Shown: one piece after another, positions 38,905-42,920 of the stretch
Layout of the letters: every line of letters begins with the position of its first letter
Position numbering within the stretch: position 1 is the first letter of the stretch
Origin: Nannochloris sp. 'desiccata'
Taxonomy: Eukaryota > Chlorophyta > Trebouxiophyceae > Chlorellales > Chlorellaceae
Reading direction: 5' to 3'
Assembly: GCA_019044685.2 (NCBI GenBank)
Contig: JAGTXX020000010.1
Span: forward strand, 62,001-126,000
Length of the DNA: 64,000 bases
Translations under genes and position numbers: made by a program
The notes under the pieces: model-generated
Databases searched by the model: none
Told to the model about the DNA's origin: nothing
The model's input: only the letters and a program-made list of their open reading frames with translations

Positions 38905-39598
38905 ATGGCGGCCGTAGATGTTAAACTCTTTGGCAAATGGAGCTTCGATGACGTAGAGGTTAACGATATCTCTCTTGAGGATTACTTGGCCGTTAAGCCC
39001 AAGTATGCTCGTTTCACTGCACACACTGCTGGACGTTATCAAAAAAGACGTTTCCGCAAGGCTCAGTGCCCTATTGTTGAGCGTTTGACCAACAGTCTTA
39101 TGATGCACGGCCGCAACAACGGAAAGAAGTTGATGGCTGCTCGCATTGTCTCACACGCATTTGACATTATCCACTTGCTCACCGACCAGAACCCTATTCA
39201 GGTTCTTGTTGATGCTATCATTAACGGCGGACCTCGTGAAGATGCCACCCGTATTGGATCTGCTGGTGTTGTCCGTCGCCAGGCTGTTGATGTGTCCCCC
39301 CTTCGTCGTGTCAACCAGGCTATTTGGCTCATCACTACTGGCGCTCGTGAATCATCTTTCAGAAACATCAAGACTATTCCTGAGTGCCTCGCTGATGAGC
39401 TTATTAACGCGGCGAAAGGATCTTCTAACTCTTATGCTATTAAGAAGAAGGACGAGATTGAGAGAGTGGCCAAGGCCAATAGATGTGAGTTTATAATACT
39501 TATAAATACTAATTATAATCTTGGCATCCCTCCAGTGCTTCGTTTAGTACTATTATATTTACTCACCATCTAATTAAACCTTCCTTTATTTTGCAGAA
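38905..39598 (+). CDS. RPS5: Cytosolic 40S ribosomal protein uS7 (RPS5)
   Basis: Encodes 193 residues, the normal length. Typical parts: [126 protein letters not shown] and the C-terminal [17 protein letters not shown]. uS7 sits in the head of the small subunit at the mRNA exit. The coding exon 38,905-39,484 ends with the first T of the stop codon; GTGAGT follows, and the acceptor TTTTGCAG at 39,596 supplies AA, so the TAA stop is split by a 112-bp intron. Without splicing the protein would gain about 29 unrelated residues. Confidence 0.95.
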
Positions 39599-40082: not shown

Positions 40083-41108
40083 ATGAGTGCTTTTGCTATC
40101 CTTAAGTCATCTCGGACGCAATTGTCACGTCTTTTAATGCGACCTGCATTGCTAGATAGCGTTGCACCCAGCCAAAGTGGCCTAGTCTATACTTCATCGA
40201 ATAGTCATTCTCTTGCTGCGGAAACCCTACGCTCACAGACCTCCAACAGCCTAGTATCACTCTTTTCTTTGAGATCTTTAAATACTTCAGCCGTTAAGGA
40301 AGCCAGTGTTCAGGTTTCTGTGCCTGCACTCGGAGAGAGTATTACCGACGGCGCCATTGCAACAATCTTAAAACAAAAGGGAGAACAAGTTAAAGAAGAT
40401 GAGGTGTTGATGCAAATTGAAACTGATAAAGTAACAATTGATGTTAGAGCACCTACATCAGGAACTGTAGAAGCTATTTTGGTATGTGGGGATATATTTT
40501 TACTTATCTAAGCTTTATCTTCACGTAGCCGTTGCCGCACCCTTCCGCCTCTGTCTTCATTTTTTCATTATTTCTTCAACTTTCTGCAGGTGAAAGAGGA
40601 TGAAAACGTCATTGTAGGTCATATTATAGCTGTCATAGACGACTTGGGTGAAGCTTCTTCTTCAGCTTCTTCTTCCCCTCCCGCTGCAAAAGCTCAAAAA
40701 CAAGAAGCACCGCCCACAATTTCTGAAGAAAAAAAGTTGCCACCGCCACGAGCTGCTGCTAGTGCTCCTCAAATGACAGCTTCATCTGACGATTCACATG
40801 GACGAGGACGTATTCCTTCTATTCAATTCCCACCTCGTCGCACCTCTACAGGAGATATCATCAGTATGATGCCTGCCGCCGAAGCTGCTGCTGCGGCTGC
40901 TGCCGCTACGGCGAGTGCTGCCGCTAGCAGTTCTTCTTCATCTTCAGAAGTTTCAAAGCCTGTTCGAATGACCGAGTCGCCTCATAAATCTCAATTGTTT
41001 ATCAGAGTTCCCCCTAGATCCTCTGGCCCTGACCCTCCACCGAGAAAAGAACTGAGCGAGTGGGAAATTGAAAATATTATGCTGGGCGGTGCCGAAATGG
41101 AAATTTGA
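40083..41108 (+). CDS. Lipoyl domain (E2o-type) fused to a KGD4/MRPS36-like E3-adaptor; no E2 catalytic domain
   Basis: Exons 40083-40481 and 40590-41108 (phase 0) give 305 residues. A Ser/Arg/Leu-rich mitochondrial presequence (about 1-70) leads to a lipoyl domain (about 76-152: VSVPALGESITDGAI, QIETDKVTIDVRAP with lipoyl Lys 116, EAIL/VKEDENV), typical of the 2-oxoglutarate dehydrogenase E2. After an Ala/Pro/Ser linker comes RIPSIQFPPRR (about 207-217), a poly-Ala/Ser stretch and a terminal ELSEWEIENIMLGG. These resemble the two conserved ends of KGD4/MRPS36 (human: PLIRFPDRR and EEIEFIQRGG), the subunit that recruits E3 to the complex. The catalytic acyltransferase domain (HxxxDG) is absent and only 225 bp separate the stop from the next gene. 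So it is probably a lipoylated adaptor, not E2. The lipoyl part is certain; the KGD4 part is by eye. Confidence 0.8.
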
Positions 41109-41333: not shown

Positions 41334-42920
41334 CTATGCAGCATGATTTTCCATTGCTATGGCCCTAACAGCATCCATCGTCAGTGACTTTGGTCTCTCA
41401 ATGGGTAATCCCAATGCTCTAGACCATATGCCCTGTGATAAGACCCCCAAAGATCTTGATACGCCAAACAACACGGTATAAAATTTATCTTCAGTGATGC
41501 CATAATATTGTAACAAGACCCCAGAGTGGGCATCGACGTTTGGCCAAGGGTTTTTAACTTTACCAGTTTGTGTAAGCACATCAGGTACTACTTCGTACAG
41601 CTGACTAACCAGACGGAATAAAGGATAGTCTGGCATATGTTTTTGTGCAAATTCTCGTTGAGAGGTGTAGCGAGGGTCAGTTTTACGCAGCACAGCATGA
41701 CCGAATCCTGGAACCACTTTCCCACTTTTCAGTGTTGCCCATACAAAATCAGTTAATTGCTCCTTTGTAGGGTTATCTCCAAGTTGTTCACGGACATTAG
41801 TCAACCAACGAAGTACTTCTTGATTTGCGAGGCCGTGTAAAGGACCAGCTAAGCCAGTCATTCCAGCTACAAATGACAAATAAGGATCTGAAAGAGCAGA
41901 GCCAACGAGATGCGTGGCATGAGCACTGACGTTACCACCTTCATGATCAGCGTGGATTGTTTGATACAATCTCATCATTTCCAGTGCACCTTCATCTGAT
42001 CCATATCCCATCATATGTGCCAAGTTAGCTGACCAGTCAAGAGTTGGGTGGGGATCGATGTTTTTGCCATTCTGGTAGCACCTGCGGTAAATGAGTGCAG
42101 CAACAGCAGGGAGTTTGGCGATTAAATCCATGCTATCTTCATAAATAGGTTCCCAGTACTTTGTTTTATGGATACCAGATTCATAAGCAGAGGCGAATTG
42201 CGAGTGTGACTGTAACGCCAATATAGCGGTAGCAAATTGGGTCATGGGGTGAGTAGTGGGGGGCATAGCTTCAAGAACAGCAGAGATATGAGCTGGTAAG
42301 GTACTTCGTTTTCTTAGCATTTCAGTAACAGCAGCTGCTTGATCTTTTGAGGGTAAATCTCCAGTTAATAGAAGCCATAGAAGACCCTCAGGTAGTGGCT
42401 GACCACCAGATTTTGCAGCAGGGAGATGTTTTTGAAGATCAGGGATAGAGTGGCCTCTAAAACGGATACCTTCTTCAGCGTCGAGAAGAGAAGTTTCCCA
42501 GAGCATTCCGGGGATACCACGCATGCCACCGATCGCTTGTTCGACAGTGACAGTGCCAAGGGCGGCAGCACCGCATTCTTTCTTCAGCGCTTTCAATCGT
42601 TCCTAGAGCAGAACAAATATATCAATGATTAGGTAAAGATTAGTTAATAAGTACTAGATGGTGCCTAGGAATGAGTTTGGTGTTGATTTATAAAGGCAGA
42701 GCTTAGGGCAAAGAGGGGGCTTCAAGCAATTGTCACAAGAGACGAGAAAAAAGAACAAAAAAAAAGAACCAACCTGTTCAGCAGGAATCTTTTCGGCAAG
42801 GACAGCCTTGAGATCAGTGCTTGTCGAGAGACTACGAAGAGCTCCAATCTCAAGATCAGCGAGGGTTTTCTGAGCAAGAGCACCCCTAGCTAGCAATAAA
42901 GATTTACATGCCCTCTGCAT
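41334..42920 (-). CDS. CS: Mitochondrial citrate synthase
   Basis: Exons 42774-42920 and 41334-42602 (phase 0) give 471 residues. The enzyme condenses acetyl-CoA and oxaloacetate at the entry of the TCA cycle. The basic N-terminus ([17 protein letters not shown]) is a mitochondrial presequence, and [17 protein letters not shown] is the usual mature start. Catalytic residues are present: His in [19 protein letters not shown], His in [12 protein letters not shown], and Asp in [10 protein letters not shown]. The sequence is of the eukaryotic mitochondrial type, not the glyoxysomal type. The ATG at 42,920 is chosen over an in-frame upstream TTG. It is convergent with the lipoyl/KGD4 gene, 225 bp apart. 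Confidence 0.96.

Follow-up and report, generated by a model that had tools for sequence, protein, structure and literature searches.

A two-exon gene in the window (the whole 64,000-nucleotide stretch of Nannochloris DNA analysed here) encodes a protein in which a lipoyl domain of the eukaryotic E2o kind is joined to a tail resembling the small adaptor KGD4, also called MRPS36 or Ymr31 (Table 1). The same genome encodes a separate full-length E2o that has no E3-binding domain. We propose that the product is probably a non-catalytic KGD4-type adaptor that would hold E3 on the E2o core and bring its own lipoyl arm. It gives a known kind of adaptor a new architecture, one that is conserved among green algae; the first paper on this adaptor is reportedly that of Heublein in 2014.

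Table 1 Features of the lipoyl-KGD4 gene, in positions of the window.
Feature	Position	Strand	Basis
Gene, two exons	40083-41108	+	Open frame after removing a GT..AG intron; product of 305 residues
Presequence, residues 1-70, taken as mitochondrial; RSLNTSA near the likely cleavage point	40083..40292	+	Composition and low identity, read by eye
Lipoyl domain, exon 1 part, residues 77-133	40311..40481	+	PF00364 match; closest NCBIfam model SucB/E2o
AAA codon for K116, predicted lipoyl lysine of QIETDKVTID	40428..40430	+	Sequence; K kept in 37/37 homologues
Intron GTATGT...CTGCAG, 108 bp	40482..40589	+	In-frame stop if retained; inferred from sequence
Lipoyl domain, exon 2 part, residues 134-149	40590..40637	+	PF00364 match
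Ala/Pro/Ser-rich linker, residues 150-206	40638..40808	+	Mean pairwise identity 24% (26 sequences)
First KGD4-like island, residues 207-232, RIPSIQFPPRRTSTGDIISMMPAAEA	40809..40886	+	55% identity, no gaps; presumed E3-binding end via KGD4 crosslinks
Second variable linker, residues 233-284	40887..41042	+	Mean pairwise identity 22%
Terminal KGD4-like island, residues 285-305, RKELSEWEIENIMLGGAEMEI	41043..41105	+	hhalign to KGD4; presumed E2o-core-binding end via KGD4 crosslinks
Stop codon	41106-41108	+	Sequence

A preliminary description of this DNA had proposed the joining of an E2o-type lipoyl domain to a KGD4-like tail, and Pfam, the SucB models and profile-profile comparison against shuffled controls bore it out. 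A Pfam scan of the 305-residue protein placed PF00364 at residues 77-149 (65.1 bits, E 5.2e-18; cut-off 22.1), with ETDKVTID at residues 113-120, and returned neither a 2-oxoacid_dh (PF00198) nor an E3_binding (PF02817) domain, in line with the earlier statement that E2 catalysis is absent. Among NCBIfam models, those for SucB/E2o came top at 93 and 89 bits and the best pyruvate dehydrogenase E2 model reached 71. The glycine cleavage H protein (17.2, below the cut-off of 22.2) and biotin carriers (below cut-off) were rejected as identities; ETDK is not the biotin attachment motif, which is AMKM.

In a lipoyl-domain tree (58 rows, 81 columns; one row, P0025_2, is a second, shifted copy of a domain already in the set), the fusion domains fell inside the E2o group of eukaryotes (99/90) and clear of both bacterial E2o and the genome's own pyruvate-type E2 domains. 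They did not form one group there: the labels change 6 times over the tree, with supported branches forcing at least 2 of the changes. This scattering may reflect the low resolution of 81 columns or more than one origin. The Nannochloris domain is identical to that of its own E2o at 38 of 81 positions, so it is no recent copy, and it keeps the form found in plant E2o, QIETDKVTIDV-x-x-P. An AlphaFold2 model of a relative (P0003) had pLDDT values of 88-97 over residues 71-150 (blocks of ten). Among the best 50 of 720 Foldseek matches to this model, the nearest single solved lipoyl domain was 1ghj, from Azotobacter oxoglutarate dehydrogenase; the top two rows, alignments of 219 and 212 columns, were disregarded at 23 and 30 A. 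From its sequence context, K116 is predicted to be lipoylated in vivo.

The tail carries two islands with the consensus RxPxIxFPPRR (first) and LSxxEMExIMLGGA (terminal). Both motifs picked out in the preliminary description are there: RIPSIQFPPRR at residues 207-217, where the first island reads RIPSIQFPPRRTSTGDIIS, and KELSEWEIENIMLGGA at residues 286-301, with key residues kept in 26 of 26 sequences. By Pfam, no tail scanned reached the PF10937 cut-off of 22 bits (best 19.9), sub-threshold matches came from 4 of 22 tails and 4 of 37 proteins, and neither the Nannochloris protein nor its tail matched. The PF10937 matches of the P0023 and P0030 tails and of P0172 all ended at the last profile position (116/116), and P0030 matched as a tail (12.5 bits) and not as a whole protein.

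Profile-profile comparison (hhalign), however, aligned the 22-tail profile with ten yeast or yeast-like KGD4 sequences over the terminal ~21-22 columns, at a probability of 82.4 and a score of 35.0. As good a score arose in none of 300 column shuffles (maximum 17.4), nor with the reversed profile (16.9), nor in 300 shuffles confined to the last 22 columns (maximum 18.4). Taken literally, the PF10937 scan gave an outcome that the preliminary description had listed as refuting its proposal, a C-terminus below the HMM threshold; since the profile-profile match far exceeds its shuffled controls, we ascribe the low score to the Pfam model, for which the tail is too divergent. By this sequence comparison, the terminal island is homologous to KGD4. 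The first island aligned, as the second-best match, to Y-x-P-M-I-K-F at the start of fungal KGD4 (score 15.0) and, taken alone, was weakly above chance against KGD4 (7 of 400 shuffles as high); it is probably homologous to the N-terminal motif of that family.

With one trypanosomatid KGD4 (Strigomonas) added, the hhalign probability was 94.5 (E 8e-8), with a score of 44.5 after gap columns were dropped, and again 0 of 300 shuffles did as well (shuffle maxima 16.8 and 21.3). This protein scores above the Pfam cut-off (28.3 bits) and near its end has a motif of the algal type, SEQEMETIMLGGA, with a short extension after it. Since the query that found it, at E 1.2, contained algal rows, part of its resemblance to the algal form comes from selection, and the fungal-only comparison is the independent one. 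A protein search with the tail profile gave 53 matches. None carried the PF10937 label, and the alanine-rich middle may have been the cause by filling the list of candidates. A mixed query of yeast Kgd4 and algal rows, with the middle omitted, gave 60, of which 11 were labelled PF10937. Judged by name or sequence, 10 of these are yeast or yeast-like proteins, which a query containing yeast Kgd4 would be expected to find; the other is that of Strigomonas. The tail profile matched no solved structure (best E 3.1). In the P0003 model, which came without an error matrix, parts of the tail had pLDDT values of 83-94, with helices at 217-227 and 264-271.

The architecture of lipoyl domain and tail occurs in at least Chlorella variabilis, C. 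vulgaris, C. sorokiniana, C. ohadii, Micractinium, Parachlorella kessleri, Prototheca wickerhamii, 'Picsp' (presumably Picochlorum), Raphidocelis subcapitata, Gonium pectorale and Bryopsis. The fusion is present in several green algal genera and is not a one-off. Database taxonomy places Raphidocelis in the Chlorophyceae and Prototheca in the Trebouxiophyceae, and we take Bryopsis to be an ulvophyte. All named nearest relatives among the best 120 of 173 matches are green algae, and the names given to the relatives are hypothetical protein, dihydrolipoamide acetyltransferase or 2-oxoglutarate dehydrogenase E2.

Three alignments underlie the conservation figures: 26 whole proteins including that of Nannochloris, 22 tails, and 37 hand-chosen proteins with the Nannochloris protein left out. 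The 37 were chosen from the 173 matches (best 120), the 53 tail-profile matches and the 60 mixed-query matches. Not included are E2 proteins of the ordinary kind, fragments lacking the lipoyl domain, sequences with retained introns or shifted frames (for example P0024, P0031, P0032 and P0039), P0033, P0115, the ribosomal fusions P0019 and P0027, and some further lipoyl-bearing relatives. Across the 26 sequences, mean pairwise identity reaches 63% for the lipoyl domain, with 55% and 64% for the first and the terminal (285-301) island, against 22-24% for the presequence and linkers; the gap fraction is 0.00 in both islands. I211, F213, P214, R216, G221 and S225 of the first island and E292, I296, L298, G299, G300 and A301 of the terminal one are identical in 26/26 (own plus 25 homologues). 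In all 37 hand-chosen relatives the lipoyl lysine, the first-island F, P, R, G and S and the terminal LGGA are invariant.

Some relatives depart from this form. Gonium pectorale P0140 has EAGKAA at the lipoyl site and not ETDKVT, which may mean that lipoylation was lost in that line or may be a sequence error. P0178 (127 residues) is tail-only, with a presequence-like start directly before the first island and no lipoyl domain, and suggests that a stand-alone form of the algal tail exists somewhere. P0168 (Chrzof1, 99 residues) is likewise tail-only and may be a truncated gene model.

Residues 1-72 of the Nannochloris protein hold 7 K/R against 2 D/E, and the presequence has a mean pairwise identity of 22% (26 sequences). 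Downstream lies an opposite-strand open frame, 41334 to 42602, read by eye as citrate synthase, so no acyltransferase exon directly follows the stop codon. The upstream neighbour, also read by eye, is a ribosomal protein S5 gene (38905-39598). Its coding sequence ends ...AKANR, and its TAA is apparently split, with T at 39484, an intron at 39485-39596 and AA at 39597-39598. In P0027 (Prototheca) and P0019, gene models join the lipoyl-KGD4 protein to a ribosomal protein resembling the upstream S5. The split stop codon may explain why these models run from one gene into the other, and the two models suggest that the order of S5 followed by the lipoyl-KGD4 gene is old.

The other components of the complex were sought in the 21.5-Mb assembly (18 contigs). 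E2 catalytic domains (PF00198) were found at seven places, six of them with PF02817, and the 305-residue gene was absent from both sets of matches (for PF02817 at E up to 10). The seventh core, on contig 11, is by sequence a full-length E2o with an Ala/Pro/Lys-rich linker in place of an E3-binding domain; this is the separate E2o that the preliminary description had proposed looking for. The E1o gene lies on contig 10, and a single E3 match above cut-off on contig 2. The separate KGD4 also named there did not turn up: with yeast Kgd4, the Nannochloris tail and a further algal tail as queries, nothing else scored better than E 0.1 and no second KGD4-like gene was found, although a short, divergent, multi-exon KGD4 could escape them. 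Of the weak matches (L022, L024, L025, L026 and L028; E 0.1 to 1.03), four have no motif like E-x-E-x-I-x-x-GGA and L024 has it within a long low-complexity frame. One other match to the motif pattern, C5:682492, was set aside as well, its frame continuing for 499 residues with the motif non-terminal. PF10937 itself matched nothing in this genome, which is uninformative because it also matched nothing in the control genomes.

Two observations were made on these E2 genes. The lipoyl domain of the Nannochloris E2o (L010:724-2196) reads QLDTDKVTLDIKYTEKVPG and that of the E2o of Sanguina (P0113), which we take to be a green alga, reads QIETDKVTIDVKYTGKAPG; in both, additional residues follow the lipoyl hairpin and the branches are long, and they group together (98/88). 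With the green algal relatives of the fusion protein, this grouping points to a chlorophyte, probably trebouxiophyte, genome. A 516-residue E2 gene with an E3-binding domain is present in three copies (C9:1264815-1268486, C17:181012-184683 and C17:475755-479426; L012-L014), 99.7-100% identical over ~3,670 bases and with the contig 17 pair in opposite orientation, reflecting either a recent duplication or an assembly effect.

What the adaptor might do can be read from published work on KGD4. The available text of PMC9974300 describes eukaryotic E2o as lacking an E3-binding domain, and reports crosslinks in bovine and mouse mitochondria from N-terminal residues of MRPS36/KGD4 to E3 and from C-terminal residues to E2o, a polarity with which, it states, earlier yeast work agrees. 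These crosslinks reverse the assignment in the preliminary description, which had taken the first motif as the E1/E2 end and the terminal one as the E3 end (PMC9974300). With the published polarity, the algal order would be lipoyl domain, linker, E3 binder, linker, core anchor. Bacterial E2 and protein X follow the order lipoyl domain, E3 binder, core anchor, and the layout likeness to E3BP/protein X that had been noted earlier is upheld.

On this model, the terminal island would anchor the adaptor onto the E2o cube, the first island would hold E3, and a flexible linker would let the lipoyl domain swing as an extra arm between E1o, E2o and the bound E3. The protein would thus be the oxoglutarate-complex equivalent of protein X/E3BP, with the same domain order and with an E3 binder and core anchor from a different family. 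Its location, its binding to E3 and E2o, its membership of the complex and any transfer of acyl groups or electrons by it are conditional on the same reasoning. In a fungus (Chaetomium), KGD4 has been named E3BPo and estimated at ~4 copies per 24 E2o, according to the available portion of PMC10203282. Caution comes from human cells: in one study, as reported in the accessible part of PMC8146983, co-expression of MRPS36 brought no rise in the activity of the complex in cell lysates.

The same parts could be put to a different use. It is unlikely, though worth weighing, that the lipoyl domain of this KGD4 adaptor is a docking handle that binds E1o or E3 and strengthens the assembly, its lipoate, if any, carrying no flux. 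'Unloaded' lipoyl domains have been proposed as possible anchors of outer subunits in the portion of PMC10203282 available, and the EAGKAA site of Gonium P0140 fits such a use; a handle would hardly need the near-unchanged lipoyl motif of the 37 hand-chosen proteins, in which E and K are invariant and Q, T, D and V are kept in at least 90%. The lipoyl carrier and E3 clip might instead serve another mitochondrial system, such as the branched-chain complex, glycine decarboxylase or a lipoate-dependent peroxidase system. E3 is common to several lipoate-dependent systems, and the link of the algal protein to E2o rests on sequence. We hold this to be quite improbable, given the E2o-type lipoyl domain (SucB at 93 and 89 bits, the H protein model below its cut-off, grouping with eukaryotic E2o), the E3-binding domains that the six other E2 cores of the genome carry themselves, and the description of KGD4/MRPS36 as a part of the oxoglutarate complex in the accessible parts of PMC9974300, PMC10203282 and PMC8146983.

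An intron separates most of the lipoyl domain from the tail, and two related models (P0019 and P0027) are fused to the upstream ribosomal protein gene, so one may ask whether gene modelling or assembly joined two parts that come from separate transcripts or that are in fact spliced to an acyltransferase. Such an artefact is very unlikely: P0003 (277 residues) and P0030 (215 residues) carry lipoyl domain and tail in a single frame on contigs of 994 and 938 bases, several algal gene models (P0007-P0009, P0017, P0022 and P0034) hold both parts, and an opposite-strand gene lies directly downstream. An E2o-like start without a catalytic domain could also be what is left of a degenerating partial copy of the E2o gene that picked up a tail by chance. 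That account is barely credible and is contradicted by conservation, with the tail islands kept in the 26 aligned sequences and invariant residues in 37, by a terminal island matching KGD4 far above shuffles, and by a lipoyl domain sharing no more than 38 of 81 positions with that of the genome's own E2o.

The reading as an E3-holding adaptor with its own lipoyl arm would have consequences for how such complexes are built. The attachment of E3 to the eukaryotic oxoglutarate complex was solved only recently, for animals and fungi; among the matches listed, no paper dealt with it for green algae. In agreement with the earlier statement that the architecture has no known description, titles and abstract openings among the matches listed (few from subscription journals) held no lipoyl domain joined to KGD4/MRPS36 and no KGD4 in green algae; the available text of PMC9974300 contains neither 'alga' nor 'plant', and 'fusion' solely as an instrument name. 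With a lipoyl-armed adaptor one could test cleanly whether the arm needs to be on the catalytic subunit. Such an adaptor would amount to the protein X layout rebuilt independently, and it would explain an algal gene family now named hypothetical, acetyltransferase or E2 subunit. More tentatively, and with somewhat less than even confidence, we suggest that green algae evolved a counterpart of protein X for the oxoglutarate complex from unrelated E3-binding and core-anchoring parts, so that each E3 would be delivered with its own lipoyl arm, and that labour was divided between an adaptor arm that keeps the canonical E2o sequence and an E2o arm that diverged and gained residues after the hairpin. 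The division of labour is speculative, as the two chlorophyte E2o sequences behind it (Nannochloris and Sanguina) are too few for a pattern.

Compared with KGD4/MRPS36/Ymr31 (PF10937), the algal tail has the same E-x-E-x-I-x-x-GGA at its end and, near its start, a segment that probably corresponds to P-x-I-x-F, in the same order and around a variable middle, and would have the same role of holding E3 on the E2o core. The KGD4 proteins met in this analysis and in the published accounts, however, are small and have no lipoyl domain, whereas the algal protein carries one, has a longer first island (FPPRRTxxGxxIS) and has tails below the Pfam cut-off (19.9 versus 22). With E2o/DLST it shares a presequence and a lipoyl domain of the eukaryotic E2o group but not the PF00198 catalytic domain, and a separate full-length E2o is present in the genome. 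Forms of E2o with two lipoyl domains (P0012, P0013, P0015, P0018 and P0029; read by eye) also add a second lipoyl domain to the complex, though on E2o itself and not on an adaptor. Protein X/E3BP of the mitochondrial pyruvate dehydrogenase complex is likewise non-catalytic and runs from lipoyl domain through E3-binding to core-binding part, an order that for the last two parts of the algal protein would follow from the KGD4 crosslinks. Unlike protein X, the algal protein has neither PF02817 nor an acyltransferase-like core (PF00198); its lipoyl domain is of the E2o type, and the complex is a different one.
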